Assembly (NCBI RefSeq): GCF_001598915.1
Contig: NZ_BDAP01000007.1
Coordinates: 124,001 to 188,000, forward strand
DNA: 64,000 nt
Direction: 5' to 3'
Origin: Williamsia muralis NBRC 105860
GTDB taxonomy: Bacteria; Actinomycetota; Actinomycetes; Mycobacteriales; Mycobacteriaceae
Part shown: positions 10,485 through 33,160 of the stretch, in pieces
How the letters are laid out: every line of letters begins with the position of its first letter
How positions within the stretch are numbered: the first letter of the stretch is position 1
The notes under the pieces: model-generated
Databases searched by the model: none
Told to the model about the DNA's origin: nothing
Seen by the model: only the letters and a program-made list of their open reading frames with translations
Position numbers and translations under genes: made by a program

Positions 10485-10521
10485 TGCGCGGCTCGACTGA
10501 ACGGCTGCACATCCACCCTGA

Positions 10522-10995
10522 TCAGCGAGGCGTGATGGGCGGCTCGGTGGACCAGGGGAAGTTGATCCAGCGGTCGGTGTACCGCCAGGTGTAGTCGGCC
10601 TTGATCACCGATGCGGGCTTCTCGTACAACACCGCCGTCCGTACCTCGGAGGCGTGGTTGCGACAGAAGGTGTGTACGAGTTCCAGTGTCTTTCCACTGT
10701 CCGCGACGTCGTCGACGACGAGTACGGTCAGGCCGTCCAGTTCGGTCGCATCGAGGATGGGCGGGAGTATCACCGGTTCGTCGAGCGTGGTGCCCACACC
10801 GGTGTAGAACTCGACGTTCATCGTGAACAGTGATTTGCAGTCGAGCGCGTACGCCAGCGCCCCGGCAGGCACCAGGCCCCCGCGCGCGATACCGAGCACC
10901 ACGTCGGGCGCGAACCCGGAATCGGCGACCGTCTGAGCGAGGTCACGACTCGCCGCCCCGAACAGATCCCAGGTGAGTACTTCGCGTTCGCTCAT
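10522..10995 (-). CDS. Type I phosphoribosyltransferase (xanthine/guanine PRTase-like)
   Basis: The 157-residue protein contains the PRPP-binding loop VLVVDDVADSGKTLEL near residue 95 and the N-terminal substrate-side motif LGIARGGLVPAGALAYAL. This arrangement matches the hypoxanthine/xanthine-guanine PRTase-like group that makes nucleotides from free bases and PRPP in the cytoplasm. The ATG at 10995 starts MSEREVLTWDLFG; the open frame continues upstream, but there it overlaps the LLM gene in another frame. It lies 32 bases after the LLM oxidoreductase on the same strand. Confidence 0.85.
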   Translation of the reverse strand: MSEREVLTWDLFGAASRDLAQTVADSGFAPDVVLGIARGGLVPAGALAYALDCKSLFTMNVEFYTGVGTTLDEPVILPPILDATELDGLTVLVVDDVADSGKTLELVHTFCRNHASEVRTAVLYEKPASVIKADYTWRYTDRWINFPWSTEPPITPR

Positions 10996-17183: not shown

Positions 17184-18709
17184 CAACGGTGCCGGTGGTG
17201 GTGGTCGGGGCCGGACCGACGGGTCTGACCGCGGCCTGCCTGCTGGCCGCACACGGCGTTGATTGTGTGGTCGTCGAACGACGGCGGGGTGTGCATCCGT
17301 TGCCTCGCGCTGTCCACCTCGACGACGAGGTCTACCGGATACTGCAAAGTGCCGGCGCCGCAACCGAGTTCGCGTCCAGCGGGCGAGCCGCACATGGCTT
17401 GCGCTTGGTGAATCCGCAGGGCCGGGTGTTGATGGAGTTCGCACGTGATCGCACCGTGGGTCACAGCGGCTGGCGTGAGACCACGATGTTCGATCAGCCG
17501 GACCTGGAACGGGCACTGCGCTGCGCCCTGGCCGAACACCCGGGAACCCAGGTGATGGAAGGCTCCGTCGTAGAGGCGATCACACCCGGAACCGACGGGG
17601 CGGTGGTGAGCGTCCGACGGGACTCTGGTGCCCGCGCCACGCTGCACGCACGCTATGTCCTCGGTTGCGATGGCGCTTCGAGTGCGGTGGCGCAAGCCAT
17701 CGGAGGGGCATGGCGCGACCTGCGATTCACCCAGGAGTGGCTGGTCGTCGATGTCCGTACCTCCCACGAGGTGACGATGTGGCCGGGCGTGCACCAGGTC
17801 TGCGCCGGGTCTGGAGCATCGACGTTCATGCGAATCGGAGCTGACCGGTACCGGTGGGAGTTTCGGCTCCCGACCGATCTGGACCGCGAACCGGACGCGC
17901 TCTGGGCACTCGGTGAGATTCGGAGGTCGCTGCCCGACAGCTGCGACATCGAGGTGGTCCGGACGGCGCGATACCGGCACGCCGCGCGGGTGGCACGGCG
18001 TTGGCGCGCAGGCCCACTGTTCATCCTGGGCGATGCCGCACATCTCACCCCGCCCTTCATCGGTCAGGGACTCGGCGCAGGACAACGCGATGCGATGAAC
18101 CTCACCTGGAAGCTCGCTGCCGTACTCGACGGCCGCGCGGACGACCGTCTGTTGGACAGCTACCAGACCGAACGCGCACCGCATGTCCTGCGGTCGGTGG
18201 TCGCGGCAACAGCGATCGGCAGGGCCATGTCCATCGAGCCCGGACCGGGCAGAGCGGCCGTGGACGCGGTGTTGCGTGGGCTCGGCGGTGCGCCAGGTGC
18301 CGCGACCATCGGGCCGCGGCTGATCTATCCGCGGGTCGGCAGAGGAGGCGTGCCCGCACGGGAGCGCATCCGACGGGGGAGTGGTCGACTCGGTGCGTTG
18401 TTCCCCCAATTCGTCCTGCGCTCCGGCCCCGGCGGTGAGATGGTGGCCGGCTCCGACGACGTGCTGGGGCTCGGCCCGGTGCTGGTGCACCACGGTCGGT
18501 TCACCGACGAGCTGGCCGACCACACGGATGCCGTTGGCGCACGCAGAGTGGCGGTCGGCGAATTCGGCCCGGCCGCACCCCAACTCACCGAGTGGCTTCG
18601 CAGCGGCCAGCTCAACGCCGTTCTCGTTCGACCCGACCGGGTGATCGCTGCCGTGGAGTCGACGTCCGGCCGGGTCACCGCGTTCAGGACATGCGCGTTC
18701 GGGACATGA
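17180..18709 (+). CDS. FAD-dependent aromatic monooxygenase (PHBH/MhpA type)
   Basis: A 509-residue group A flavoprotein hydroxylase. It has the N-terminal GAGPTGLTAACLLAAHG dinucleotide motif, the DG motif VLGCDGASSAV near residue 160 and the GD motif ILGDAAHLTPPFIGQGLGAG near residue 280. A C-terminal thioredoxin-like tail carries GRVTAFRTC. Such enzymes hydroxylate phenols with NAD(P)H and O2. Its ATG lies inside the glycosyltransferase stop (ATGA). Beside a type III PKS it parallels SrsC of the Streptomyces srs phenolic-lipid operon, which oxidises resorcinols towards quinones; that function is inferred. Confidence 0.88.
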   Translation: MTTVPVVVVGAGPTGLTAACLLAAHGVDCVVVERRRGVHPLPRAVHLDDEVYRILQSAGAATEFASSGRAAHGLRLVNPQGRVLMEFARDRTVGHSGWRETTMFDQPDLERALRCALAEHPGTQVMEGSVVEAITPGTDGAVVSVRRDSGARATLHARYVLGCDGASSAVAQAIGGAWRDLRFTQEWLVVDVRTSHEVTMWPGVHQVCAGSGASTFMRIGADRYRWEFRLPTDLDREPDALWALGEIRRSLPDSCDIEVVRTARYRHAARVARRWRAGPLFILGDAAHLTPPFIGQGLGAGQRDAMNLTWKLAAVLDGRADDRLLDSYQTERAPHVLRSVVAATAIGRAMSIEPGPGRAAVDAVLRGLGGAPGAATIGPRLIYPRVGRGGVPARERIRRGSGRLGALFPQFVLRSGPGGEMVAGSDDVLGLGPVLVHHGRFTDELADHTDAVGARRVAVGEFGPAAPQLTEWLRSGQLNAVLVRPDRVIAAVESTSGRVTAFRTCAFGT

Positions 18710-18771
18710 TCGTGAATGTCGCAGCCCGCGGCGTGCACTGCGCCCATGGGTGCCGCTGGTAAGTTCCTGCC

Positions 18772-19962
18772 GTGGGTCTGACGAGGCGAGCGGTTGCACT
18801 CGCCGCACTGGTTGTGGCCCTTGTGCTCGCCGGCTGCGGCGGCGATGCCATCTCGACATCGAACGGCGAGGAGACGAGCTGGACCAACCCGGCGCATCTA
18901 CCGTTCCCGGGCCCAGGTGACGTGGTCGAGGTGACGGACTGGGTGTCCGGTGGCGCCGAGGCTACGCAGGTGTCCGGCAAGCGGATCCTGTACCGATCCA
19001 CCGACATCGAGAACCGGCCGATCGTCGTCTCGGGAACCGTGTTCGTGCCGTCGGGGGAGGCGCCGGAGGGCGGTTGGCCGATTCTTGCGATCGGACATGG
19101 GTCCACCGGGATCAACGTTGACTGCGCACCTTCACTCACCCCGGACCTGTATGGCCTGCTCCGGTTGGTCCGCAACTACCTGCGTGCGGGGATGGCCGTC
19201 ACCTTCGCCGACTACTCCGGGCTCGGCACGCCGAGTGGACCCCACCCCTATCTCGACCCGTATGCGGCGGCCCGAACGGTGATCGACTCCGTACGCGCCA
19301 TCCGACACGTCTTCCCCAGCATGTCGTCGACATGGGCGACCTACGGCATCTCTCAGGGTGGAGCAGCCAGCTGGGCGGCCGACGAGCTCGCGGCGGACTA
19401 TGCGCCGGAACTCCGCCTTGTCGGAGCTGTTGCACAGGTTCCGTCGACGGACAAGACCCCGATGGTGGATCTGGCCGCTGCCGGCACCTTGACCCTCGAA
19501 CAACAGGGCATCCTCCAATGGCTGGAGGAGTCGTTGGCGCGCAGGCATGCCGATTTCGACCTGAACAACTACCGTCAGGGTGGCCTTGCGGAGCGGTGGA
19601 CCGATCTCAGTGGCTGCGGGCGGTCGAACGCGCGCGAGCGGGCGCTACGGCAGATCTCTGCCTCCGAGTTCACGCCGTCGAGTCCTGCCGCCGCCGAACG
19701 CTTGCGCACGTTGCTGCAGTCGATGGCGTTGCCGCGCACACGGTTGTCGGCCCCGCTGTACGTCTTGTACGGCGGCGCCGACCGGTTCAATGCCCCCGAG
19801 TGGATCACCGCCGGAATCCGGAAGGCGTGCGAACTCGGTGGCCCGATCACCATCACCTACAGCCCCGGGGCCGGGCACGGCAATGTGGACACGAGCGGCA
19901 TCGCGCGGTACCTGGCCGACCGGGTCGCCGGCGGGCCGGTGCGCGATGACTGTCGTCGATGA
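18772..19962 (+). CDS. Secreted lipase-family lipoprotein
   Basis: A 396-residue alpha/beta hydrolase of the secretory lipase (LIP) family. The N-terminus is a lipoprotein signal (RRAVALAALVVALVLAGC, lipobox LAGC), so the mature protein is probably anchored outside the membrane. The nucleophile elbow is YGISQGG, and late Asp (GGADRFN) and His (GAGHGN) residues complete a triad. The GTG at 18772 has only a weak ribosome site. Its stop overlaps the first SMR gene by four bases, an unusual pairing. A role in hydrolysing exported lipid esters is plausible but unproven. Confidence 0.85.
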   Translation: MGLTRRAVALAALVVALVLAGCGGDAISTSNGEETSWTNPAHLPFPGPGDVVEVTDWVSGGAEATQVSGKRILYRSTDIENRPIVVSGTVFVPSGEAPEGGWPILAIGHGSTGINVDCAPSLTPDLYGLLRLVRNYLRAGMAVTFADYSGLGTPSGPHPYLDPYAAARTVIDSVRAIRHVFPSMSSTWATYGISQGGAASWAADELAADYAPELRLVGAVAQVPSTDKTPMVDLAAAGTLTLEQQGILQWLEESLARRHADFDLNNYRQGGLAERWTDLSGCGRSNARERALRQISASEFTPSSPAAAERLRTLLQSMALPRTRLSAPLYVLYGGADRFNAPEWITAGIRKACELGGPITITYSPGAGHGNVDTSGIARYLADRVAGGPVRDDCRR

Positions 19963-20339
19963 CCACCCTCTCGAACATCGCGACGAACAAGTGGCTTGTC
20001 CTCGGCTGCGCCATCGTCAGCGAGGTCAGTGCCACCCTTGCCCTGCGGGCGTCGGTGGACGACGCGCGGTGGCTGGTTCTGGTGGTCGCCGGATACCTCG
20101 GAGGGTTCGCCTTCCTCGCGCTTGTCCTGCGGGCCGGGATGCCGGTGGGGGTTGCCTACGGGATCTGGGCGGCCGTGGGGGTTGCACTCACCGCGGTGCT
20201 GGCCGCTCTCATCTTCGGTGATGCGTTCACCGTGGGCATCGGAGTGGGTATCGCGATCGTGATCGGTGGAGTCCTCCTGGTCGAATTGGGCTCGCACGGC
20301 GGCCATGAGACGGCGGACGAACCCAAGGCGCCCGAATGA
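19959..20339 (+). CDS. SMR-family efflux subunit 1
   Basis: The 126-residue protein has four hydrophobic helices and the SMR hallmarks: the essential Glu of helix 1 (AIVSEVSATLALRAS), the helix 2-3 region LRAGMPVGVAYGIWAAVGVAL, and a terminal Gly-rich helix. It carries a charged C-terminal tail of about 20 residues. SMR proteins exchange cationic compounds for protons as dimers. The gene starts inside the lipase stop codon and its own stop overlaps the next SMR gene, so the two are probably made in equal amounts as a heterodimeric pump. Confidence 0.92.
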   Translation: MTTLSNIATNKWLVLGCAIVSEVSATLALRASVDDARWLVLVVAGYLGGFAFLALVLRAGMPVGVAYGIWAAVGVALTAVLAALIFGDAFTVGIGVGIAIVIGGVLLVELGSHGGHETADEPKAPE

Positions 20340-20662
20340 CGTGGACGTACCTGATGATCGCGATCGTCTTCGAGGTCGCGGGCACGCTCTCACTGCGAGC
20401 GTCGGACGGCTTCCGCAAGATGATCTGGCTGATTCCGACCGTCGTCGGTTATCTGGTTGCGTTCGGCGCCCTGTCGCTGACCTTGGCCGGCGGCATGCCC
20501 GTCGGTGTGGCCTACGGGATCTGGGCCGCGTGCGGCGTCGCGTTGACCGCGGTCGTGGCGAGGTTGGTCTTCAAGGACCCGCTGACCTGGGTGATGGGTG
20601 CAGGCATCGTCCTGATTGCCTGTGGCGTCCTGGTCATCGAACTGAGTTCGTCGCACCACTGA
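20336..20662 (+). CDS. SMR-family efflux subunit 2
   Basis: A 108-residue four-helix SMR protein with the catalytic Glu in IVFEVAGTLSLRAS and the conserved GGMPVGVAYGIWAACGVALT. It starts in a 4-base overlap (ATGA) with subunit 1, to which it is clearly paralogous. Such tandem coupled pairs (EbrAB/YkkCD-like) usually work as heterodimers of opposite membrane orientation. About 100 bases downstream the convergent dioxygenase ends; no clear terminator is seen. Confidence 0.92.
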   Translation: MTWTYLMIAIVFEVAGTLSLRASDGFRKMIWLIPTVVGYLVAFGALSLTLAGGMPVGVAYGIWAACGVALTAVVARLVFKDPLTWVMGAGIVLIACGVLVIELSSSHH

Positions 20663-20765
20663 CGGTTCGCAGGCCTTGCGCCGCCGGACAATTCGTCGAG
20701 GACGCGGCCCCGGGTACCGAACCCGGAGCCGCGCTGTGACCACGCGCTGGAACCACGCGCTCGAA

Positions 20766-21734
20766 CTATTTCGCGAAGTTCGCACTGATCCGCTGGTGCA
20801 GATAGTCCTTCGCGGTGATCGGCGGGTACTTACCGCTGGGCCCCTCGATGACAACCTCGCTGTTGGCCTGGGCGAAGAAGGCGATGGAATACCGCGCACC
20901 ACGGTCGTCCCCGGCCCCGGGGCTGCGCACCCGATGAAAGTTGGACGGTAGTACGTCGTCGCTCCACCGCATCAGCATGTCCCCGATGTTGCAGGTGATC
21001 GCATCGTCGGAGGGTTCAACCGACGTCCATTCCTGTGAATCCATCTCCTTGCCCGGGCACACCTGCAATCCGCCTTGGCCGTTTCGCTGGAAAAGCAGTG
21101 TGAGGCAGTCGAAATCGGTGTGCGCTCCCGCTCGCCACATCCCGGTCAGTTCGGCGTCCTGCGGGACCGCGAAGTAGTGCAGCAGACGCAGGGTGCTCTG
21201 GTAGGTGGCCGATGTCGGGTCGTGGGCCGCCGCGAAGAAGTCACGGTGGAAACCCATCTTCTCGGCGAACAGCGACAGCAGATCCATCGCCAGGCGCCAG
21301 CATCTGGCTTCGAAAGCCTTGATGGTGTCGGTGAACCCGACGAGTTCGTCGTCGGACGGCCAGAGTCCATCCATATTCGAGAGGGTGACCTGGTAGGACT
21401 CCTTCTGGTCCGGGGTTCCCACCGACGGCCGAACCTGGGTCATGCTCTCCCATCCGGAGTTGAATCGTTTCGGATAGCGGGCCTTGACCTCGGCCGGCAG
21501 TGCGAAGAATGCTTCTGCCATCGCGAAGGCCCGGCGTACCTCGGTCAGGTCGATACCGTGGTCGACCACCTGAAAGAAGCCGATGTCGGTTGCTGCCGAC
21601 CACAATTCATCGGCGATCTCGGCGCGTCTGGTGCTGAGGTCGGCCAACGAGATGCGCCGCACCTCGCGTGCGCTTTCGGTGCCGATTGCGCCCATTCGGC
21701 GTTCGCGCTGCAATTCGGTCATGTCGTACGTCAT
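20766..21734 (-). CDS. Isopenicillin-N-synthase-like Fe(II)/2-oxoglutarate dioxygenase (copy 1)
   Basis: A 322-residue non-heme iron oxygenase. The DIOX_N region ends at FFQVVDHGID; the iron triad is His205 and Asp207 in GAHTDFDCLTLLFQ and His267 in NFHRV. Arg281 in RYSIAFF is the usual 2-oxoglutarate anchor. It is a paralogue of the enzyme at 25049. It lies just downstream of the substrate-binding-protein gene on the same strand, with 111 bases between them that include a G-rich heptad repeat. With the importer and the deaminase-like protein it probably belongs to a catabolic cassette for a nitrogen heterocycle; the substrate is not known. Confidence 0.88.
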   Translation of the reverse strand: MTYDMTELQRERRMGAIGTESAREVRRISLADLSTRRAEIADELWSAATDIGFFQVVDHGIDLTEVRRAFAMAEAFFALPAEVKARYPKRFNSGWESMTQVRPSVGTPDQKESYQVTLSNMDGLWPSDDELVGFTDTIKAFEARCWRLAMDLLSLFAEKMGFHRDFFAAAHDPTSATYQSTLRLLHYFAVPQDAELTGMWRAGAHTDFDCLTLLFQRNGQGGLQVCPGKEMDSQEWTSVEPSDDAITCNIGDMLMRWSDDVLPSNFHRVRSPGAGDDRGARYSIAFFAQANSEVVIEGPSGKYPPITAKDYLHQRISANFAK

Positions 21735-21764
21735 GAGCTGAGGACTTTCCGTTCTGAGGTCTGT

Positions 21765-21796
21765 GGGTCTTGGGGGCTTGGGTCTTGGGTCCGGGG
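21765..21796 (+). repeat. G-rich heptad repeat, predicted G-quadruplex
   Basis: Five G runs (21765-21767, 21772-21776, 21780-21782, 21787-21789, 21793-21796) are separated by loops of four, three, four and three bases. They arise from about four copies of a GGGTCTT-like unit. The tract lies in the leader between the substrate-binding-protein stop and the dioxygenase start; the transcribed RNA would carry the C-rich strand. Confidence 0.6.
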
Positions 21797-21845
21797 TTTT
21801 GGATGTCCGGGAGAGAACGCGCGGTGTTCGCGAGAGTGCTGCTGG

Positions 21846-23012
21846 TCAGGGAATGGAGATGGCGGGGACGGTGAACTGATTGGTGAACATCTGCTGCGCG
21901 GTCATCGACGCGGGCACACTATTTCCCCCTGCGGCCAGTACCGGTGTCAGTTCTGCGACGTTGCGGCTGGTGCGGGCGTCGTCGTAAACACCGAACGCGC
22001 CGTTGTCCTCGTTCGCGAGCAGACCCTTCTCCTGCAAGAGATCAGCACTGAAAGCGGCTTCGCCCTCGCTGTAGGGCGAGTAGGTCTGGTCTTGCGACAC
22101 CACGTCGACGATGACCTTGTTCGTAGCCTCGGGAGAGGTGATGTAGTCGACGCCCGCTTGCTGGATGATGGGCACCAGCTTCTCGAGGCACGGCGAGAAC
22201 TCGGCGAGTTTGTCAGCTCGCACAGAGACATTCGAGGCGTAGATGTCGTAGCCGGCATCCTTGATCAGGCCGTAGGACACCGGTTTGTCCCACGCGGGCG
22301 TCTCCTCCTCGTACGTGTACGGCTCCGAGTTCGCGAACCCCTGCTGGGCGATCGCCGGGTCACCGACGAACCTCGATGGTGCGCCGTCGTAGCTGGTGTC
22401 GATCTGGGACGGCTTCAACAGACCTTTCGCCACCATCCACTGCGGGAAGATCTGGTCCTTGGAAACCACCACGGTGGCATCGCCGGTGCCCACATCGCCG
22501 ACGGATTTCCATTCGGGATGCGTCTGCGGATCCCACATCAGAATCGCCGGGCTGTATTTGAGCAGTGGGGTCACCCCGACCACAGGTTGGTCGGCGGCCG
22601 CCGACACCAGCTGATCTCCGTGCACCACACCGAGCATCGCCGAGTCGTCCACATACAGCTGCGAGGTGACGGACTGGAACCCGATCGCCGGTCCGCCGGA
22701 CTTCAGTGTGATGTCCACTCCCGTGTCCTTGCCTCCCGCCACCAGCGGGCCGGTGACCGATTTGTCGTCGGTGTTCACCTGGTAGCCCGGGCCGAGCATG
22801 GCAAAGAGAGCGCCCATGTCGGACTGTGGCTGCCACTGCAACTGCACGCCGACGTTTGCCGGACACACATCAGCGAGGCTTTGCTCCGCTGCCGCCGGTT
22901 CGATCGAGACCGTTTCTGCCGCGTCGTCGGACCCGAATGCGCAGGCGGACAAGGTCAACGTGGTGAGCGCTACGGCAGTGATGCCGAAACGCCGACGGTG
23001 CGAGAACGTCAT
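21846..23012 (-). CDS. ABC transporter substrate-binding lipoprotein
   Basis: A 388-residue exported solute-binding protein. The N-terminus RRRFGITAVALTTLTLSAC is a lipoprotein signal with lipobox LSAC, and the body resembles the NMT1/nitrate-taurine-nucleobase-precursor group (NVGVQLQWQPQSDMG, then IIQQAGVDYITSP). It would deliver its ligand to the permease encoded divergently at 24111. The ATG at 23012 follows GAGGAG. The divergent promoter region of 319 bases holds three copies of a TTACATG site. The ligand is not evident; the cassette suggests a nucleobase-like or other N-heterocyclic compound. Confidence 0.85.
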   Translation of the reverse strand: MTFSHRRRFGITAVALTTLTLSACAFGSDDAAETVSIEPAAAEQSLADVCPANVGVQLQWQPQSDMGALFAMLGPGYQVNTDDKSVTGPLVAGGKDTGVDITLKSGGPAIGFQSVTSQLYVDDSAMLGVVHGDQLVSAAADQPVVGVTPLLKYSPAILMWDPQTHPEWKSVGDVGTGDATVVVSKDQIFPQWMVAKGLLKPSQIDTSYDGAPSRFVGDPAIAQQGFANSEPYTYEEETPAWDKPVSYGLIKDAGYDIYASNVSVRADKLAEFSPCLEKLVPIIQQAGVDYITSPEATNKVIVDVVSQDQTYSPYSEGEAAFSADLLQEKGLLANEDNGAFGVYDDARTSRNVAELTPVLAAGGNSVPASMTAQQMFTNQFTVPAISIP

Positions 23013-23112
23013 GGTTTCTCCTCGAAAGATGGTTGGGGGTGGTCGCGGACGCTCACCTGGATTGCGATCGAGCATGTGCTCGCGCCGCCCGGTCGCCTCG
23101 TGCGCCGGAACA

Positions 23113-23124
23113 ATTACATGCAAT
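23113..23124 (+). promoter_or_regulatory. TTACATG operator, copy 1
   Basis: ATTACATGCAAT is a near-perfect palindrome (only one base pair departs from symmetry). It shares the core TTACATG with copies at 23257 and 23298. Palindromes of this type are typical FCD-GntR operators, and a GntR gene sits in this cassette at 26119. This copy lies about 100 bases upstream of the binding-protein gene. Confidence 0.6.
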
Positions 23125-23256
23125 CAGTAGTGTGTTGCGGCGTTGTTACCGCCTGTTAAAACCGTAGGCAGCATCCAAGGACACTTCAAAAAGCCAGTTA
23201 GACAGCCCGCAAAGGAACCGATGTCACGAGAACGTAACTGCGTGCAACTCGATCGT

Positions 23257-23268
23257 CATGCATGTAAT
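23257..23268 (-). promoter_or_regulatory. TTACATG operator, copy 2 (reverse orientation)
   Basis: Read on the minus strand the site is ATTACATGCATG, matching copy 1 in the first ten bases. It lies in the middle of the divergent region, 30 bases from copy 3. Confidence 0.55.
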
Positions 23269-23297
23269 CCACCATGATGAGGAACGGACAGCCCACT

Positions 23298-23309
23298 GTT
23301 ACATGTACA
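23298..23309 (+). promoter_or_regulatory. TTACATG operator, copy 3
   Basis: GTTACATGTACA repeats the TTACATG core and ends about 22 bases before the ATP-binding-subunit start. A repressor bound here would cover the plus-strand promoter. Confidence 0.55.
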
Positions 23310-23331
23310 AGCCGATCGTATGGAGGTCGAG

Positions 23332-24114
23332 ATGAGACTCGCGGACACAGTGCGGGACGCAGACGCGCGCAGGCTCACAAAGAACACGCAGATCGTCTTC
23401 GCCGATGTCGGCAAGCAGTTCGACACCGGGACGGTTGCCGTGGAGGGAGTCGACCTCGAGGTGCGCCGCGGAGACTTTGTTGCGGTTGTCGGGCCGTCGG
23501 GTTGCGGGAAGTCCACGCTTTTGCGGATGGCAGCCGGTCTCGAGGAGCCGACCGCGGGATCGGTCGCAGTGGCTGACGATTCGGTCGGCTTCATCTTCCA
23601 AGAACCCACGTTGCTGCCGTGGCGAAGTGTTCGGGCGAATGTCGAGTTGTCGGCCGAGTTGCGTCGCGAGAATCGTGCCGCCGTCAAACGTCGTGCCGCG
23701 GAGTCGATCTCCGCGGTGGGCTTGGAGCAATTCGCGGATCAACTACCCAAAGCACTTTCTGGTGGCATGAAGATGCGTGTGTCGTTGGCGCGGGCGCTGA
23801 CGCTGTCGCCGGCCACGATGCTGCTCGACGAACCGTTCGGCGCACTCGACGAGATGACCCGGCTGGACATGCAGGTCGAACTCCAAAGGCTCTACGCCGA
23901 AAGGCATTTCACCGCGATGTTCATCACGCATTCGGTGTCCGAGGCGGTCTACCTCGCCAATCGGGTGGTGGTGATGACCGCACGACCGGGACGCATAGCC
24001 GCTCAGTTCGACATCGACTTTCCTTATCCGCGCAGCCCCGAGCTGCGATTCGACACCCGCTTCACCGACCACGTCTCCGAGATCTCGGCGACCCTGCACA
24101 GGAGCAACCGATGA
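23332..24114 (+). CDS. ABC importer ATP-binding subunit (nitrate/taurine type)
   Basis: A 260-residue ATPase with Walker A GPSGCGKST, Q-loop FIFQEPTLLPW, signature LSGGMKMRVSLARAL, Walker B MLLDEPFGALD and the switch His (MFITHSVSEAVYLANR). This is the SsuB/TauB-like class. Of two in-frame ATGs (23320 and 23332) the second is preferred because GGAGG lies five bases before it. The stop overlaps the permease ATG by four bases. Confidence 0.93.
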   Translation: MRLADTVRDADARRLTKNTQIVFADVGKQFDTGTVAVEGVDLEVRRGDFVAVVGPSGCGKSTLLRMAAGLEEPTAGSVAVADDSVGFIFQEPTLLPWRSVRANVELSAELRRENRAAVKRRAAESISAVGLEQFADQLPKALSGGMKMRVSLARALTLSPATMLLDEPFGALDEMTRLDMQVELQRLYAERHFTAMFITHSVSEAVYLANRVVVMTARPGRIAAQFDIDFPYPRSPELRFDTRFTDHVSEISATLHRSNR

Positions 24115-24995
24115 CCCAGCTCGATGCCACGCTCGCCCGGCCAGGGAGGACATATACGGCGACGGCACGGCCGGGCGCGCCGTCCGGTCGACTGTCCAAG
24201 CGGCGGATCCGCACGGCGACAGCCGTTGTGCTCGGGCCCCTGCTGTCGCTGCTCGGCGCTCTGGTGTTGTGGTCGATGGTCAGCTACTGGGTGCTGTCAC
24301 CGGAGCGGAGATTCCTGTTACCGCCGCCGGGCGATGTGCTGAGGAACTCCCTGATGGACTGGACGCACCTGCGGCCCATGCTCGAAGCGCTGGCGGTGAC
24401 GGCGCAGGTGGCGATGGTCGGATTCCTGGTGGCGGTTGTGGTGGGTGTCGGCACCGGAGTGCTGATGAGTCAGGCCAAGTGGATCGAGCGCATCATCTAC
24501 CCCTACGCCGTGGTGATCCAGGTGATCCCCATCCTCGCCATCGTTCCGCTCATCGGTTTGTGGTTCGGATACGGGATGATGTCGCGCACCCTGGTCTGTG
24601 TGCTGATCGCCGCCTTCCCGATCATCACCAACACCCACTTCGGGATAAGGTCGGTCGACCGCGGACTGCACGAGCTCTTTGCGCTCTCTCGTGCGTCACG
24701 TTGGGACCGGTTGGTCAAACTCGAACTGCGGGCCGCACTTCCGGCCATTCTCACCGGTGTGCGCACCGCGTCGGGACTGGTCGTGGTCGGCGCGATCATC
24801 GGGGACATGTTCTTCGCCAAGGGACAGCCGGGAATCGGCACACTGCTCGACGTCTACCGCGGCCGTCTGCAGTCCGATGACCTGATCGCAGCCATCGTGC
24901 TCGCGTCGATCTTCGGAGTCGCGGTGTTCGGTGTCATGGGGATCGTGTCGAAGCTCGCAGTCGGCAGCTGGCACGAGTCCGGGCGTGACTCGTGA
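24111..24995 (+). CDS. ABC importer permease (nitrate/taurine type)
   Basis: A 294-residue membrane subunit with about six helices and the EAA loop (GLHELFALSRASRWDRLVKLELRAALPAI read across two turns), which docks the ATPase. It is the only permease in the cassette, so a homodimeric pore is likely. The ATG overlaps the ATPase stop. The dioxygenase gene follows, starting either at an overlapping GTG or 53 bases later. Confidence 0.92.
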   Translation: MTQLDATLARPGRTYTATARPGAPSGRLSKRRIRTATAVVLGPLLSLLGALVLWSMVSYWVLSPERRFLLPPPGDVLRNSLMDWTHLRPMLEALAVTAQVAMVGFLVAVVVGVGTGVLMSQAKWIERIIYPYAVVIQVIPILAIVPLIGLWFGYGMMSRTLVCVLIAAFPIITNTHFGIRSVDRGLHELFALSRASRWDRLVKLELRAALPAILTGVRTASGLVVVGAIIGDMFFAKGQPGIGTLLDVYRGRLQSDDLIAAIVLASIFGVAVFGVMGIVSKLAVGSWHESGRDS

Positions 24996-25048
24996 ACGAT
25001 CCGTATCCCGAGACCACAGAGAATCGATCATCGACAAGGGAGCATTCT

Positions 25049-26104
25049 GTGCCCGGCACACCGTTTGAGGTACCCACCATCGACATCAGCCCGTACCGCG
25101 ACGACAAGCGCCGCTCGGATCCGTCGGCGCGGGCAGAGGTCGCGTCCGCCCTCGACCGTGCGTGCCGCGACGTCGGTTTCGTCCAGATCGTCGGTCACGG
25201 TATCGACACCCACACCATTGCGGGACTCGCCGGCGCGCTCGATGAGTTCTTTGCCCTGCCCCTGGCGGTGAAGAAGCAGTACCGACGGGACCCGGCGACC
25301 AATCGTGGCTACTCTCCGCCCAAGTCGGAGTCGCTCAGCATGAGCCTGGGCATCCCGACAGCAGGACAGATGAACGACTTCTACGAGGCATACACGGTGG
25401 GCACCGAAGCGGCGGACTTCATGCCGCTCGAACTACCCGAGACCAGCTACGCGCCGAACAACTGGCCCGACGCCGCGCCGGGGTTCGCTCCCGCGATCCA
25501 GGCTTACTTCGCTGCAGCACAGGTACTCTCGCGCATTCTGATGGGCGCCTTCACCGATGCGCTGGGTCTGCGACCGGGGTACTTCGAGAATCTGATCGAC
25601 CACTCGATCGAAGCGCTGAAGATGAACAACTACGCCCTGCCGGAAGGCGACACCGAGTTCACCGGTGACCTGACGGGGATGGGGGCCCACACCGACTTCG
25701 GGATCCTGACCATTCTGTGGGCCGACCGCGTTCCCGGTCTCCAGGTACTCGACCGCGAGGGACACTGGCACGATGTCCAGCCGGCCGAAGGTGCGCTGCT
25801 GATCAATCTGGGAGATGCGATGTCGCGCTGGACCAACGACCGCTGGATGTCGACCATCCATCGCGTCGACCCTCCGGTGGTCGACGGTCAGATCACGCGG
25901 CGTCGTTCGGCGGCATTCTTCTTCGACGGCAATCACGACGCGGTCATCGAAGCTCTTCCCGGGACGTTGGCAGAGGGCGAGACGGGCTACCCTCCGATTA
26001 CGATTGCCGAGAACATCGCCATGAAGGTTGCCGGCCTGCGCACCGGTGTGGCACCTGCGACGCAACTTCGAGAGGCCGCGCGTGTTGCCGCGGCCGAGAA
26101 GTAG
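25049..26104 (+). CDS. Isopenicillin-N-synthase-like Fe(II)/2-oxoglutarate dioxygenase (copy 2)
   Basis: A 351-residue oxygenase with VGFVQIVGHGID in the DIOX_N domain. The iron triad is His214 and Asp216 (MGAHTDFGILTIL) and His271 (TIHRVDPP), with Arg285 near the RRSAAFFF strand for 2-oxoglutarate. A GTG at 24992 overlaps the permease stop. I prefer GTG 25049 because GGGAG precedes it and the 19 codons between have poor G/C third-position bias. Family relatives hydroxylate nucleobases, amino acids or alcohols; together with the transporter and amidohydrolase this suggests oxidative attack on an imported heterocycle. Confidence 0.87.
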   Translation: MPGTPFEVPTIDISPYRDDKRRSDPSARAEVASALDRACRDVGFVQIVGHGIDTHTIAGLAGALDEFFALPLAVKKQYRRDPATNRGYSPPKSESLSMSLGIPTAGQMNDFYEAYTVGTEAADFMPLELPETSYAPNNWPDAAPGFAPAIQAYFAAAQVLSRILMGAFTDALGLRPGYFENLIDHSIEALKMNNYALPEGDTEFTGDLTGMGAHTDFGILTILWADRVPGLQVLDREGHWHDVQPAEGALLINLGDAMSRWTNDRWMSTIHRVDPPVVDGQITRRRSAAFFFDGNHDAVIEALPGTLAEGETGYPPITIAENIAMKVAGLRTGVAPATQLREAARVAAAEK

Positions 26105-26118
26105 GGAGGGGAGCAGAG

Positions 26119-26763
26119 GTGACGGCATCTGAGCGTGCCCTGCTCACCGACTCGGTGCACGACGCGCTGCAGGAGATGATCTTCTCCGGCGAACTGCAGT
26201 CGGGGAGCCCGTTGAGTGTGCCCGCGTTGGCCGCTCGGCTGAAGGTGAGTCGGACTCCGGTCCGAGAAGCGGTGCAGCAGCTCATCTACGAAGGTCTTGC
26301 ATCCCATACGCGCAACGCCGGCGCCCGGGTGGCCTCACTCGATGCCCAGACGCTCAAGTCCGTGTTCGAGGTCCGGGAGGTTCTGGACGGGCTGGCGGCG
26401 TACAACGCCACTCTCACTGCCACGCATGAGACAGTGGCCCACCTGCGCAAGATGGTCGAGGTGCAGCGTGAATTGCTCGAGGATCCGGCCGACTCCCGGC
26501 GGGACGCCACCCTAGACCTCCAGTTCCATACCCTCATCCGTGAGACGGCGAACAATCGTCCACTGGGCGAAGCGCTTTCGCGGCTCGATGGCCAGTCGCA
26601 CCTGTTCCGGTCCGACGTGTGGACCGCCGACCTCAATCGCCGTCTCGCGGTGATCGAGCACGAACGGATCGTCGCCGCGATCGAAGCAGGAGACGCCGAA
26701 GGTGCGCGCACCGCCGCGTGCGCCCATGTGGCCGGGGTGTTCGTGCGTACCCAGCGGGTGTGA
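26119..26763 (+). CDS. GntR-family regulator with FCD ligand domain
   Basis: A 214-residue regulator: the winged helix SVPALAARLKVSRTPVREAVQQLIYEGL occupies residues about 35-62, and an all-helical FCD domain follows with the metal-binding His set (LDLQFHTLI, HERIVAAIEAGD, AHVAGVF). The GTG at 26119 follows a purine-rich GGGAGGGGAGCAGAG. It lies between the second dioxygenase and the amidohydrolase in one direction, so it probably controls this cassette through the three TTACATG sites at 23113-23309. Confidence 0.9.
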   Translation: MTASERALLTDSVHDALQEMIFSGELQSGSPLSVPALAARLKVSRTPVREAVQQLIYEGLASHTRNAGARVASLDAQTLKSVFEVREVLDGLAAYNATLTATHETVAHLRKMVEVQRELLEDPADSRRDATLDLQFHTLIRETANNRPLGEALSRLDGQSHLFRSDVWTADLNRRLAVIEHERIVAAIEAGDAEGARTAACAHVAGVFVRTQRV

Positions 26764-26815
26764 CAGGCGCCCCCGCATCACTTCTCGCCCCATGTGCAGA
26801 TCAGAAGGTTGAACA

Positions 26816-28066
26816 ATGAATCTCTCTTTGCCGCAATCGCTCTCGCAGCTGCGCGGCGCCGTGCTCGCCGACGGATCCGTGGTCGACCTCGACATCTCGA
26901 GGGTCGATGGTCACGCGGTCGTGACGGCTGTGCGGCCCACAGACGAGCGCGCGGTTGCTCCGGACCGAGCCGACGTACTCGACCTGCGTGGGTACGTTCT
27001 GCTCACCGCACCTGCCGAGCCTCATGCGCATCTGGACAAGGCACTGTCGTGGGATGTGTTGCGGCCGCCCCTCGGCGACCTGCACGATGCGATCGCGAAC
27101 TGGAAGGAAGGCAGCGCCGGTCTCGACGAGGAGTCATTCCGGACACGCGCGCGAACGGCCGCCCTGGCCTTGCTGCGCAACGGCACCACCGCCGTCCGGT
27201 CGCATGTCGACATCCTGCTCGGCCCCGACCCCCTCCGGGGTATCCGGGCCATCGACCGGGTTCGAAGGGAACTCGAGGGGGTGATGGACATCGAGATCGT
27301 AGCGCTGAGCAAGGTGTACGCCACCGACGAACTGGTGCATCAGGCACTCGACGCAGGCGCCGACCTCGTGGGCGGCTCACCGCACAGTGCGCCGGACCCG
27401 CTGGGCGACCTGGACCGCCTGCTGACGATCGCCGAGGCCAGGGGAGTGGGCGTGGACCTGCACACCGACGAGTTCCTGGAGGGCGATCACCACACCATCG
27501 GGGCATTCGCCGAACGCGTGGCGACATGGCCGGCGGGCCGGATCCGCACCGCCGGACACTGCACCCGGCTCGGCACGATGAGCAGAACAGAACTCGCAGG
27601 ACTGTTGCCGGTCATCGCCTCGAGCGGCATCGGGGTGGTGGCCAACCCGATCACCAACCTCTATCTGCAGGGCAGAGGTCACCCGGTCTCGACTCCGCGG
27701 GGCATCACCGCCATCGAATCGCTCCGAGAAGCGGGCATCCGGGTGGCGGCCGGTGCCGACAACGTGCGGGACGCGTTCAACCCGGTCGGGCGCAGCGACG
27801 CACTCGAGACCGCGATGCTGGCCATCACGGCAGCGCACGTACACCCGGACATCGCCATGGCGATGGTCACCGAAGACGCGCGGGCAGTGATGGGGCTGCC
27901 CGACGCAGGCCCACGTGTGGGTGCACGCGCAGAGTTCCTGGCCGTCCGAGGAACGAGTGTGCTCGACGTCATCGCCAACGCCCCCGCGGATCGGGTGGTG
28001 ATCCACGACGGCAAGCTGGTGTCGGTGAGTGAAACCCGAACCCAGATGGCCGTTTCCGCACACTGA
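26816..28066 (+). CDS. Cytosine-deaminase-like amidohydrolase
   Basis: A 416-residue metal-dependent hydrolase. The first metal site is PHAHLDK, with later ligands in LHTDEF and AGHC and a catalytic Asp in GADNVRDAF; this order fits the CodA/N-isopropylammelide-type subgroup that removes amino groups from pyrimidine- or triazine-like rings. The ATG at 26816 follows AGAAGG. It is the last gene of the dioxygenase/ABC cassette and the best clue that the substrate is a nitrogen heterocycle. Confidence 0.85.
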   Translation: MNLSLPQSLSQLRGAVLADGSVVDLDISRVDGHAVVTAVRPTDERAVAPDRADVLDLRGYVLLTAPAEPHAHLDKALSWDVLRPPLGDLHDAIANWKEGSAGLDEESFRTRARTAALALLRNGTTAVRSHVDILLGPDPLRGIRAIDRVRRELEGVMDIEIVALSKVYATDELVHQALDAGADLVGGSPHSAPDPLGDLDRLLTIAEARGVGVDLHTDEFLEGDHHTIGAFAERVATWPAGRIRTAGHCTRLGTMSRTELAGLLPVIASSGIGVVANPITNLYLQGRGHPVSTPRGITAIESLREAGIRVAAGADNVRDAFNPVGRSDALETAMLAITAAHVHPDIAMAMVTEDARAVMGLPDAGPRVGARAEFLAVRGTSVLDVIANAPADRVVIHDGKLVSVSETRTQMAVSAH

Positions 28067-28171
28067 CTCGGACATTCCGGGGTCATCCGGCCCCCGCGGA
28101 AGATCGTGAGCGTTGCTGACGTTGAGGTGCCCGTGCGTACCCGCGAGACTCACCAACCGAAAGGCTCTGCC

Positions 28172-29401
28172 ATGACTGCTGCTGGTGCCGGAGTCGACAC
28201 CCACACCGGGCAGCCGGCGCCGGGCCGAGGACTACGGCTGATCGCCTTCCCCGCGGCGGTGTACGCGTTCGCGGTGGTGATGATGGGCACCACGTTGCCG
28301 ACCCCGCTCTACCCCGAATACCAGCGGGAGTTCGGCTTCGGCAGCCTGATGACCACCGTCATCTTCGCGACGTATGCGGTCGGGGTCATTGCCGCGCTCA
28401 TCGGGGTGGGTCAGTTCTCGGACACGATCGGCCGCCGCCCGATGCTGTTTGCAGGCGTGGCCCTGTCACTGGCCAGCGCGGTCTTGTTCCTGATCGGTGG
28501 CAGTGTCGAGATCTTGTTCGTCGGGCGCCTGGTCTCGGGATTCTCCGCGGGCATCTTCACCAGCACGGCAACCGTCGCGGTCATCGAGGCCGCACCTGCG
28601 GCTCGCCGCCGGATGGCACCGGCGATCGCCACCGCCGCCAACATCGGCGGCTTGGGCCTGGGTCCGCTGGTCGCCGGCGTGGTCACCGAGTTCGCGCCGT
28701 ATCCGACGCGGACGGTTTTTGTTGTGCATGCCCTCCTGCTCGTGATCGCCGGTGCCGGCCTCCTCACCGTTCCCGAGACGGTGAAGGTGCGCAAAGGGGC
28801 TCGGCCGACACTGCAGCGGATCAGTGTGCCGCCCTCGGTTCGCGGGATCTTCCCGCAGGCGGTGGTCGGTGCGGTAGCCGGATTTGCGGTGTGCGGTCTG
28901 TTCACCGCGGTCGCCCCCAATTTCATGACCAAGGTCCTGGACATCTCGTCGCCCACGATCACGGGGCTGGTGGTCTTTGTCCTCTTCGCGGCCTCGGCTG
29001 CCACGCAGATCGTCTTGTCGAATGCACCGGTTCGCCCATCGCTTGTCGCCGGATACATCTCACTCACCGTGGGTATGGCCGTGTTGATCGTCAGTCTGGA
29101 GGCTGCGTCGTTGGCGGGATTGATCGTCGGCGCCGTGATCTCCGGGGCGAGTCAAGGCCTGCTGTTCAGCAAGGGGATCTCCGCCATCGCCGCCCGGGTG
29201 GAGCCCGAGCGCAAGGCCGATGCCACATCCGCCTACTTTGTTGTTGCCTATCTTGCCATCTCGGTGCCGATCATCGCGGATGGCTTCGCCGCGCAGGCGT
29301 GGACGCTGACCACCGCCGGCGTGGTGTTCGCCTCGGTCATCGCCGTGATGGCTGTGGGCGGGCTGATCGCCCTGCTGATGCGTCCGTGTGACGCGATCTG
29401 A
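28172..29401 (+). CDS. MFS transporter
   Basis: A 409-residue, twelve-helix major facilitator with the loop 2-3 signature GQFSDTIGRRPM and the helix 5 motif NIGGLGLGPLVAGVV typical of drug/proton antiporters. I use ATG 28172, which follows GAAAGG; a GTG at 28106 would add 22 residues. It follows the amidohydrolase by about 105 bases and may export or import a compound of that pathway. It ends only six bases from the convergent PLP-enzyme gene. Confidence 0.88.
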   Translation: MTAAGAGVDTHTGQPAPGRGLRLIAFPAAVYAFAVVMMGTTLPTPLYPEYQREFGFGSLMTTVIFATYAVGVIAALIGVGQFSDTIGRRPMLFAGVALSLASAVLFLIGGSVEILFVGRLVSGFSAGIFTSTATVAVIEAAPAARRRMAPAIATAANIGGLGLGPLVAGVVTEFAPYPTRTVFVVHALLLVIAGAGLLTVPETVKVRKGARPTLQRISVPPSVRGIFPQAVVGAVAGFAVCGLFTAVAPNFMTKVLDISSPTITGLVVFVLFAASAATQIVLSNAPVRPSLVAGYISLTVGMAVLIVSLEAASLAGLIVGAVISGASQGLLFSKGISAIAARVEPERKADATSAYFVVAYLAISVPIIADGFAAQAWTLTTAGVVFASVIAVMAVGGLIALLMRPCDAI

Positions 29402-29407
29402 CGGGCG

Positions 29408-30610
29408 TCAGCTGAACGTGTCGTCCAGAGCCGCGGACAGATCGGCGATGATGTCGGCGGGATCCTCGAGCCCGATGGACAAACGCAGATGCCCCCACTC
29501 GCGGAACTCGTTCGGGTAGTTCGCGACTCGCGCGCCTTCGGTGCCGACGTGCACGATGAGTGATTCGTCGTGTCCGAGCGAGACCGCCGAGGTGATCATC
29601 CTCAGGTTCGCGACAAACCGGTTCTGGGTGTCGGAGTCCCCACGGACGGCAAACGCCATCATCGCTCCGTGACCTCGACCGCCGAATTGGCGAGAGGCGA
29701 ACTCGTGCTGGGGATGTGAGGCCAGTCCCGGATAGGCGACGTAGGCCACCCGATCGTCGGCCTCGAGGAACTGCGCCACCTGCTCGGCCGAGGTGAGATG
29801 TCGGGACAGCCTCAGCGGCAGCGTGATCGAACCGCGGCTGATCAACCACGCATTGAAGGGCGAGATCACTCCTCCCACATCGACCATGGCATGAGATTTG
29901 ATGGGATCGATCAGGCTGCGTGCGCCCACCACGGCACCGCCCATCGCGTCCCCGTGCCCGTTGTAGTACTTCGTCAGTGAATGCACCACCAGGTCGGCCC
30001 CGTCGGCGAGGGGCCGATACAGCGGGGGCGGGGTGAATGTGGAGTCGACGACGAGCAACGCTCCGCCTTCGTGCGAGATGGCGGCGACCGCGGCGATGTC
30101 GGTGACCTTGGTGGTCGGGTTCGCGATGGCCTCGACATGCACCAGACGAGTGGTCGGGCGCATGGCCTCTTCGACCGCCTGCGGATCGGATGCGTCGACG
30201 AAGGTCGCCTCGATGCCGTATTTGACCGGGAGTAGTTCGGTGAACAGTTTCCACGTGGCCTCGTAGGTGACGTCGGCGACCACCACATGGTCACCGGTGT
30301 TGAGATACGTGAAGAAGACCGCGTGCAGTGCGGCCACCCCCGAGGCCAGGGCGACTGCGTCTTCCGCCTCTTCGAGCGCCGCCAACTTCTTCTGCAACGC
30401 AATCTGATTGGCGCCCGAGTTGCGTGTGTACAGCGGGATGTCGGTCCCGGACCAGCTGACGTTCGACGGGTCATCGGGCAGGGCGTACGAGTTCGCCATC
30501 ACGATCGGCGTGCGTACGGCGCCGGAGCCCTTGTCCACCGAGTTGCCCGCGTGCACCGCGCGGCTGTCGAAGGACAGGGTGGACGGGTCGTCGTTGTCGG
30601 GGCGGCTCAT
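29408..30610 (-). CDS. PLP-dependent trans-sulfuration-type lyase (Cys/Met metabolism family)
   Basis: A 400-residue fold-type I enzyme of the cystathionine gamma-synthase/gamma-lyase/methionine gamma-lyase family. The PLP Lys is K214 in HSLTKYYNGHGDAMGG, the cofactor-stacking Tyr lies in PLYTRNSG, and the phosphate-binding SGVAALHAV is near residue 90. The specificity-determining residues do not allow a firm choice between gamma-lyase and synthase. It follows the TetR gene by 29 bases on the same strand, so it shares the regulator's transcript, opposite a multidrug-type ABC exporter. Confidence 0.87.
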   Translation of the reverse strand: MSRPDNDDPSTLSFDSRAVHAGNSVDKGSGAVRTPIVMANSYALPDDPSNVSWSGTDIPLYTRNSGANQIALQKKLAALEEAEDAVALASGVAALHAVFFTYLNTGDHVVVADVTYEATWKLFTELLPVKYGIEATFVDASDPQAVEEAMRPTTRLVHVEAIANPTTKVTDIAAVAAISHEGGALLVVDSTFTPPPLYRPLADGADLVVHSLTKYYNGHGDAMGGAVVGARSLIDPIKSHAMVDVGGVISPFNAWLISRGSITLPLRLSRHLTSAEQVAQFLEADDRVAYVAYPGLASHPQHEFASRQFGGRGHGAMMAFAVRGDSDTQNRFVANLRMITSAVSLGHDESLIVHVGTEGARVANYPNEFREWGHLRLSIGLEDPADIIADLSAALDDTFS

Positions 30611-30639
30611 CAGCTCAGATTACGACGCGGGCACCGGTG

Positions 30640-31215
30640 TCACGCGGGCACCGATGTCGCGGAAATGGCTTTGCGTAGGCTCCGCAGTGTCATCGTCTGC
30701 ACCTTCATGCGGGTGCCGGATGCACGATTGACGTGGTCGACGCTGGCATAGAGCAGTGCCCACATCATGTTCACGATCCACTCCGCTTCGAGTTCGGCAT
30801 CGATCGAGCCGTCGGATCGTCCGCGTTCGACGGCTTCTATGACTGTGCCGTCCGTGAAGGCGATGTCCTGATCATTCACCCCGGAAGCGAAGAACAAGAC
30901 GGCGAGCACATCGGTGAGTTCGAAGTACTCCTCGCATAATCGCAAGATCGCTTCCAGACCCGTGCCCCGTGCGAGGTCGGCGCGCTCGCCGGCGTCCGCG
31001 ACGGACTGCTCGGCGAACCGCGCAACCGCACCGAGCAGATCGGAACGTTCCGGGAAATAGCGGTGCAACGTGGTGCGGCCGACTCTCGCGCGATCTGCGA
31101 TTTCCGCGAGCGGCGCAGTGGGGGACTTGGCGAGTGCGGCCACAGCCGCGTCGAGAATTGCCCGGCGAGTACGCTCACGCGCTCCGGACTCCTCGGCGGT
31201 TGAGGTCGCGACCAT
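30640..31215 (-). CDS. TetR-family regulator
   Basis: A 191-residue protein with an N-terminal HTH (RRAILDAAVAAL, then LAEIADRARVGRTTLHRYFPERSDLL) and a C-terminal ligand domain. It is divergent from an ABC exporter, with a palindrome TGGAAC-N6-GTTCCA between them, and precedes the PLP enzyme on its own strand. It most likely represses both directions; the inducer is unknown. Confidence 0.9.
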   Translation of the reverse strand: MVATSTAEESGARERTRRAILDAAVAALAKSPTAPLAEIADRARVGRTTLHRYFPERSDLLGAVARFAEQSVADAGERADLARGTGLEAILRLCEEYFELTDVLAVLFFASGVNDQDIAFTDGTVIEAVERGRSDGSIDAELEAEWIVNMMWALLYASVDHVNRASGTRMKVQTMTLRSLRKAISATSVPA

Positions 31216-31288
31216 GACGTGAGCATAGTCGCGCTGTCATCAACGACGGAATGTCGCCGTACCGCGCCGAACAAGTGAGTTTCCAAAA

Positions 31289-31306
31289 TGGAACATGTGT
31301 GTTCCA
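31289..31306. promoter_or_regulatory. TetR operator candidate TGGAAC-N6-GTTCCA
   Basis: Perfect 6-bp arms at 31289-31294 and 31301-31306 sit between the divergent tetR and exporter genes. The repeat ends only seven bases before the exporter ATG, leaving no room for a ribosome site. The exporter message may therefore be leaderless, or translation starts at the upstream ATG 31251. Confidence 0.6.
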
Positions 31307-31313
31307 CTTGGGC

Positions 31314-33125: not shown

Positions 33126-33160
33126 TCCGAGTCCGCGTCGACGGGTCGCCGAACTGACGC

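Follow-up and report, generated by a model that had tools for sequence, protein, structure and literature searches.

What compound is imported and oxidized by the products of a seven-gene cluster in Williamsia muralis NBRC 105860 is the question raised by this locus. The cluster lies at positions 20,766 to 28,066 of a 64,000-nucleotide stretch (contig NZ_BDAP01000007.1, positions 124,001 to 188,000), referred to here as the window. The genes are read in the order oxA, sbp, atp, perm, oxB, gntR, and amh, with oxA and sbp on the minus strand and the other five on the plus strand. They encode two Fe(II)/2-oxoglutarate (2OG) dioxygenases (OxA and OxB), the substrate-binding protein (SBP), ATPase, and permease of an ABC importer, a GntR regulator, and an amidohydrolase (Amh). 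The cluster is read here as a locally regulated module that scavenges a purine-type nucleobase, the base being oxidized into the xanthine/urate trunk, and this reading is given a probability of roughly 0.68.

The OxA family and the xanthine riboswitch

The oxA gene (20,766..21,734, minus strand) encodes a Fe(II)/2OG dioxygenase with the Pfam domains DIOX_N (PF14226) and 2OG-FeII_Oxy (PF03171). Relatives 52 to 82% identical to OxA occur across plasmid records and other Actinomycetota. By tblastn, OxA matches 60 plasmid records at 52 to 68% identity, 59 of them over at least 80% of its length, from Rhizobium, Pantoea, Agrobacterium, Cupriavidus, Klebsiella, Streptomyces, and others. Twelve of 59 proteobacterial records, chosen for genus spread and including two of Klebsiella pneumoniae, were read with Rfam (loci L123, L125 to L128, and L131 to L137). 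OxA is 52 to 66% identical to the proteins of these loci, and all 12 carry the xanthine riboswitch RF03054, with at least one copy above the gathering score. The riboswitch lies directly before oxA in eight loci, 19 to 145 bp from the coding sequence or first aligned base, and upstream of the preceding SBP gene in the other four. Whole-record searches of five of these (10.1 Mb in all, the large ones under stricter filters) gave seven RF03054 hits, every one at an oxA locus, and none of 14 control genomes contains it. In another Klebsiella record, RF03054 occurs nowhere but at the oxA locus.

In the part of Yu and Breaker (2020; PMC7373994) used here, the RNA binds xanthine (KD of ~3.7 µM) and urate (~25 µM) and turns expression off; it is selective for these two compounds and rejects N-methylated analogues. 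It precedes pcbC-type dioxygenases, NMT1-type and tauA transporters, and PRK12393-type amidohydrolases, and the class is reported there from Proteobacteria only. That report tied the OxA group of 2OG dioxygenases to purine oxidation, with precise functions regarded by its authors as not established. As judged by sequence, OxA is an orthologue of these riboswitch-associated dioxygenases of Proteobacteria, belonging to the family by orthology and with the cis-acting RNA absent. No report of a reaction for an OxA-family enzyme was found in the open-licence literature.

Purine genes also adjoin relatives of OxA and OxB. In Streptomyces sp. NBC_01324, the gene for an NCS2 symporter that scores over the cut-off for pbuX (xanthine permease) lies 13 bases after oxA, and in Qingshengfaniella another pbuX-type NCS2 symporter gene lies 2.7 kb from oxA. 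On a plasmid of Rhodococcus qingshengii RL1, a pbuX-type NCS2 gene (417 bits, cut-off 414) overlaps an OxB-like gene (54% identical), which is followed by a further 2OG oxygenase gene. Two genomes, G369 and G337, have oxA outside the cluster, elsewhere in the genome and 68 to 69% identical. The order in G369 is an 8-oxoguanine deaminase gene (676 bits, cut-off 532; 7.6 kb from oxA), xanthine-dehydrogenase-like genes, oxA 4 kb on, and a MobA-like gene. In G337, an amidohydrolase gene adjoins oxA, its best NCBIfam match being 8-oxoguanine deaminase, below the cut-off. Pantoea At-9b clusters genes for an 8-oxoguanine deaminase, a PRK12393-type hydrolase (with identity to that of Klebsiella), and an SBP with oxA. 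A preliminary description of this DNA had proposed a modified or plant-derived heterocycle as the substrate. A nucleobase-type compound is made likely by the xanthine riboswitch and by the xanthine-permease-type and purine-gene neighbours of the orthologues; a plant-derived origin found no support.

The Klebsiella locus L131 (6,800 to 19,316) contains genes for a FAD oxidase, an ABC importer, a creatininase, RidA, a CodA-like hydrolase, and a PDR/VanB reductase, then the riboswitch, followed by an SBP, a PRK12393-type deaminase, and oxA. Among the genes listed for this locus, none encodes a Rieske protein that could partner the reductase.

Gene order, regulation, and importer

The sbp gene (21,846..23,012, minus strand, with the start corrected to the ATG at 23,012) encodes a lipoprotein SBP of NMT1-like type. 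Across the divergent promoter, atp (23,320..24,114, plus strand) encodes an ABC ATPase of the sulfonate/nitrate/taurine type (Pfam ABC_tran); its true start is perhaps the ATG at 23,332, because a GGAGG stands directly upstream. On the same strand follow perm (24,111..24,995; ABC permease, Pfam BPD_transp_1), oxB (24,992..26,104; the second Fe(II)/2OG dioxygenase, with the same two domains as OxA, PF14226 and PF03171), gntR (26,119..26,763; FCD-type regulator, Pfam GntR and FCD), and amh (26,816..28,066; amidohydrolase of the CDA/AtzC superfamily, Pfam Amidohydro_1). Four-base overlaps join atp to perm (24,111 to 24,114) and perm to oxB (24,992 to 24,995). The gene set that the preliminary description placed at one divergent promoter is borne out by the open reading frames, the Pfam matches, these overlaps, and the kept gene order.

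That order was followed by tblastn with the window proteins. It is complete in all seven near-relative loci (L037 to L043), the L037 cluster being 95 to 100% identical to that of the window, and also at L080, in another genus. The kept gene order exceeds chance. Locus L083 is without amh. Loci L081 and L084 retain sbp, atp, perm, oxB, and gntR, locus L082 retains oxA, sbp, atp, perm, and gntR, and loci L085 to L087 retain atp, perm, sbp, oxA, and gntR. Either oxygenase can therefore be missing from a cluster that retains the importer and regulator. The SBP has 43 matches among 397 genomes searched. All nine genomes that score highest for the SBP (at least 424 bits) have oxA, compared with 12 of 394 genomes of the class (E 1e-80). 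In the genus, oxB is found at 75 to 100% identity in all nine genomes searched.

Downstream of amh lie a gene for an MFS transporter (28,106 to 29,401) and a methionine gamma-lyase-like gene of the pyridoxal phosphate type (29,408 to 30,610). These are present in six and seven of the seven near-relative loci, respectively, and in none of L080 to L087, and were rejected as members of the module.

The gap between sbp and atp contains the palindrome ATTACATGCAAT (23,113..23,124, no strand), the proposed GntR operator. Two weaker operator-like sites follow (23,258..23,308), with 10-base cores at 23,258 and 23,299 that have one mismatch each. ATTRCATGYAAT has a single exact match in the 5.54-Mb genome, at the divergent promoter of the cluster; six one-mismatch sites elsewhere look like background. 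Eighteen loci carry a gntR gene whose product is at least 49% identical (the window, L037 to L043, L080 to L087, L096, and L154). The core TTRCATGYAA, with at most one mismatch, is present in the control region of 17 of the 18 and is exact in 14; outside control regions it occurs four times in ~428 kb. The motif was defined by eye on 13 loci, L085 to L087 and L096 were scanned later, and L150 and the whole genome served as independent checks. In G369, where oxA and gntR are on different contigs, two exact cores lie within 180 bp upstream of oxA. We infer from these sequences that the palindrome is bound by GntR. The genes look jointly regulated, and the shared operator-like palindrome strengthens the earlier claim that they form one unit.

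The SBP translation shows a lipobox (LSAC), and a Pfam search of the protein gave no match. A profile of its family matches the NMT1-type binding proteins of the proteobacterial oxA loci (hhalign, 99.5%, E 1.1e-22, 292 columns), and the protein matches Klebsiella SBP2 with an E value of 9e-10. Relative to their counterparts at the Klebsiella oxA locus, identity is 45% for the ATPase and 39% for the permease. The top NCBIfam models of these two proteins are sulfonate, nitrate, and SaoP-type transporters, with all scores shown far under the cut-offs, and assignment as a sulfonate or nitrate importer was rejected on these scores. Most of the distant SBP loci (L088 to L119) retain genes for Amh, the ATPase, and the permease. 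Neighbours at the 43 SBP loci compared include a FAD_binding_4 oxidase (21 loci), a PDR/VanB reductase (13), a creatininase (12), an MTHFR-like protein (8), and a Rieske protein (7). The Klebsiella and Rahnella oxA loci are also rich in FAD oxidase, creatininase, PDR/VanB reductase, and CodA-like genes.

Active-site residues of the oxygenases and the amidohydrolase

Both oxygenases contain the His-Asp-His triad and the 2OG anchors, which are H205, D207, and H267 with R281 and S283 in OxA, and H233, D235, and H290 with R304 and S306 in OxB. The best PDB match of OxA is a thymine dioxygenase (2.9e-29). Six pocket residues of thymine-7-hydroxylase (T7H), Asn87, Glu122, Arg190, Tyr217, Phe292, and Asn294, were taken for comparison from the part of PMC4787775 used here. 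The alignment holds 21 OxA rows, including three proteobacterial members. All 21 rows read N-Q-R-Y-H-D-F-H-R-S-F-Q, and T7H reads N-E-R-Y-H-D-Y-H-R-S-F-N. OxA retains the iron and 2OG ligands, the O2-binding Asn, the base-stacking Phe, and the Arg190 equivalent. Gln115, Phe208, and Gln289 replace Glu122, Tyr217, and Asn294, and the thymine pocket is not preserved in full. Of the six pocket residues, the OxB of the window keeps the Asn and Phe alone, and Lys replaces Arg190. A structure prediction of OxA from seven close sequences had a mean pLDDT of 32.9 and was unusable.

Amh retains the metal and catalytic residues of CodA (H70, H72, H216, E219, H248, and D315 for H61, H63, H214, E217, H246, and D313). 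K75, K166, N316, and F321 stand in place of CodA T66, Q156, D314, and W319, the last three of which have roles in the cytosine site. With the E. coli enzyme set aside, an alignment of 45 rows leaves 44, in which the Lys is found in all 43 readable rows and the Asn and Phe in 43 of 44 each. Of these 44 relatives, 43 have another residue in place of Asp314 and of Trp319, and 40 in place of Gln156. Against the NCBIfam cytosine deaminase models, Amh scores 127 to 170 bits, with cut-offs of 403 to 483. K75, N316, and F321 recur in the CodA-like hydrolases at the oxA loci of Klebsiella, Rahnella, Rhizobium, and Agrobacterium. Because this pattern is common to Amh and the hydrolases at proteobacterial oxA loci, Amh is, by its residues, placed in a subfamily found alongside oxA in two phyla, and not among the cytosine deaminases. 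The cytosine-deaminase-like function first proposed for it is not supported, given the Lys, Asn, and Phe that stand for CodA Gln156, Asp314, and Trp319. The best 30 of 330 plasmid records matched by Amh are all ~30% identical.

The window genome (G000) contains four other PF03171 genes, three of which sit with nucleobase genes at L121 and L122. L121 (C7, 3,572 to 13,237) is a pyrimidine-type cluster with oxygenases. It has two more tandem DIOX_N oxygenase genes beside a gene for a 91-aa protein (ferredoxin-like by eye, no Pfam match), with genes for a VOC-like protein, a RutG/UraA-like NCS2 symporter, a D-hydantoinase/dihydropyrimidinase (over the cut-off), a carbamoylase, and an aminotransferase. 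At L122 (C2, 9,649 to 14,064), a DIOX_N oxygenase gene overlaps a CMP/dCMP-type deaminase gene, and genes for PucR and an NCS1 permease adjoin. L120 (C1, ~9,550 to 10,626) is an OxB paralogue with 55 to 57% identical copies in all nine genomes of the genus. It shares 62% identity with the Rhodococcus oxygenase encoded by the gene that overlaps the one for the pbuX-type symporter, and no nucleobase gene was seen by eye in its surroundings.

Proposed role, rival explanations, and known systems

In the proposed scheme, the ABC importer would take up a purine-type base, and OxA, with Fe(II), O2, and 2OG, would oxidize it to a product that joins a xanthine/urate trunk encoded elsewhere. OxB may oxidize a related base, either as a second step or as an alternative one, and Amh may hydrolyse an exocyclic amine or a ring C-N bond of the substrate or an intermediate. 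GntR would repress both arms through the palindromes, with the base or its product relieving repression. Trunk genes are present in the window genome, where one stretch (L138) carries a xanthine-dehydrogenase-like gene, an 8-oxoguanine deaminase gene (over the cut-off), and genes for OHCU decarboxylase and uricase. MoCoBD_1 and uricase genes are found in all nine Williamsia genomes, on the same contig within 30 kb in eight, although a MoCoBD_1 match by itself does not single out xanthine dehydrogenase. In the Klebsiella genome, HpxO and HpxD (the latter annotated as 'molybdenum cofactor-independent xanthine hydroxylase subunit') are encoded ~390 kb from oxA, with no riboswitch there.

The presence of xanthine-dehydrogenase-like and uricase genes makes it likely that the substrate is a modified purine or that the route is free of molybdenum. 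As substrates, we favour purines on which xanthine dehydrogenase acts poorly, N-methylated or modified in some other way, the methyl group being lost as formaldehyde. Also favoured, as the alternative, is molybdenum-free ring hydroxylation, from hypoxanthine to xanthine or from guanine to 8-oxoguanine, the latter feeding 8-oxoguanine deaminase. An OFF switch for xanthine fits xanthine as the product rather than the substrate. A more specific proposal is tentative and, in our estimate, has the odds against it. OxA may belong to a cross-phylum family of bacterial 2OG purine oxidases for modified purines, removing the N7-methyl group of 7-methylguanine or 7-methylxanthine or hydroxylating C8. The geometry of T7H, in which the pyrimidinedione is held by Asn and Phe, would put purine N7/C8 at the iron and so suggests these two reactions. 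If true, OxA would be a metabolic source of substrate for the 8-oxoguanine and PRK12393-type deaminases, and the xanthine riboswitch guarding oxA-type genes would be explained.

Several observations weigh against the purine-scavenging reading. RF03054 was not found at window positions 17,000 to 34,000 with E values up to 5, nor at the Streptomyces oxA locus L124. The palindrome core is never exact in L080, L084, and L096, and was not found at L154, where the contig ends 216 bp above sbp and the promoter is possibly missing. It was likewise not found in L151 or in the stretches scanned upstream of oxA in L095 and L099. The amh gene is not near the cluster in L081 to L087, so its role is optional, and CodA Gln156 is kept in four of the 44 aligned relatives, all distant. 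In the two genomes with the next SBP scores (G020 and G034), oxA was not seen in the 20-kb SBP loci, with no dedicated search of the whole genomes. The xanthine-dehydrogenase-like large subunit of G369 scores 520 bits, under the NCBIfam cut-off of 780. Eight loci of oxA family f32 (L152, L153, and L155 to L160) have no purine gene among the compared families; L158 spans only 3.7 kb, and the Pfam searches of neighbouring genes covered L152 (LysR and mycothiol-isomerase-like) and L159 (SpoIIE-like) only. One-carbon genes (MTHFR and FolD) would fit demethylation, but they occur at only some loci and are not general.

The narrowest form of the purine reading, with which it overlaps, is that OxA merely replaces xanthine dehydrogenase as a bacterial analogue of the fungal enzyme XanA. 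The riboswitch and the xanthine-permease pairing favour this, and fungi hold both XanA and xanthine dehydrogenase, so that coexistence in Williamsia is no disproof. It is weakened by the MoCoBD_1 and uricase genes in all nine genomes and by the trunk stretch L138, and the Klebsiella genome has HpxD and HpxO besides oxA. OxA is therefore unlikely to be the sole xanthine hydroxylase. An OFF switch that senses the enzyme's own substrate would be odd, and PF14226 and PF03171 are the only domains of OxA, which is of the DIOX_N type, whereas XanA is of the TauD type. Simple replacement is thus considered unlikely. Pterin catabolism, in which an imported pterin (a folate breakdown product) is hydroxylated on the ring by OxA, for example to isoxanthopterin, and deaminated by a PRK12393-type deaminase or Amh, is judged quite unlikely. 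A pterin is possible because the Klebsiella deaminase beside oxA matches 2PAJ, which we take to be an isoxanthopterin deaminase (E 2e-201, 673 bits), and this match counts against a purine. In the La6 record, the gene next to oxA is labelled 'Isoxanthopterin deaminase', and genes for FolD and MTHFR lie close by. However, the one relative of the Klebsiella deaminase in the window genome (E 1e-15, outside the window) is an 8-oxoguanine deaminase by NCBIfam, the NCS2 partners classify as xanthine permeases, and the riboswitch is reported, in the part of PMC7373994 used here, as selective for xanthine and urate.

That the oxygenases act on an unrelated compound, such as an amino acid or a sulfonate, with an incidental linkage to base genes, appears improbable. 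The sulfonate, nitrate, and SaoP-type models of the ATPase and permease and the L120 surroundings would agree with it, but the scores lie far under the cut-offs and an association with purine features is seen repeatedly, in two phyla. Pyrimidine hydroxylation is very improbable. Here OxA and OxB would be bacterial thymine-7-hydroxylases or act on 5-methylcytosine, with Amh as a cytosine-type deaminase. The thymine dioxygenase match, the retained equivalents of Asn87, Arg190, and Phe292, and the RutG/UraA-like symporter and dihydropyrimidinase genes beside the other oxygenase pair (L121) are in its favour. Against these stand the altered Glu122, Tyr217, and Asn294 positions in all 21 OxA rows, the xanthine switches and purine neighbours of the orthologues, and the absence of Gln156, Asp314, and Trp319 from Amh.

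If the purine-scavenging reading is right, the cluster provides an iron/2OG entry into bacterial purine breakdown beside the molybdenum and Rieske enzymes. It is a compact unit, with its own operator-like palindrome, a binding protein, and two oxygenases, and the candidates are narrowed to a few purines; the question can be tested with one protein and about a dozen compounds. As far as the open-licence literature examined goes, the actinobacterial form with its GntR palindrome, OxB partner, and amidohydrolase subfamily is new, as is the association of the two kinds of oxygenase with symporters of the xanthine-permease type.

Among known systems, the fungal thymine-7-hydroxylase (5C3P) belongs to the same fold family as OxA and has the same ligands for Fe and 2OG, the Phe that stacks on the base, and the Asn that binds O2, but the match is only 2.9e-29 and three substrate-pocket residues are changed in every OxA row. 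E. coli CodA and AtzC share the metal and catalytic residues of Amh. AtzC also has the Lys and the Asn, whereas Thr66, Gln156, Asp314, and Trp319 of CodA become Lys, Lys, Asn, and Phe. Klebsiella HpxDE, a Rieske hypoxanthine/xanthine hydroxylase, is likewise a molybdenum-free oxygenase path into urate, and a PDR/VanB-type reductase is present at some relatives of the cluster. It differs in using Rieske rather than 2OG chemistry and lies at a separate locus from oxA in the same Klebsiella genome. The oxygenase-first base route of the preliminary description is partly supported, but its premise of novelty was incomplete, as HpxDE is known and the 2OG group was tied to purines in 2020 (PMC7373994, in the part used here).

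The closest comparison is with the riboswitch operons of Yu and Breaker (2020; PMC7373994), who, in that part of their report, left the role of the riboswitch-controlled 2OG dioxygenase open. Unlike the operons described there, the Williamsia cluster yielded no riboswitch and instead combines a GntR regulator with a conserved palindrome. It also encodes a second oxygenase (OxB), and its hydrolase is of the CodA/AtzC type, with no PRK12393-type deaminase in the cluster. The two share an orthologous OxA, a homologous NMT1-type ABC importer, and nearby amidohydrolases, and the window thus presents a compact actinobacterial version of these operons.

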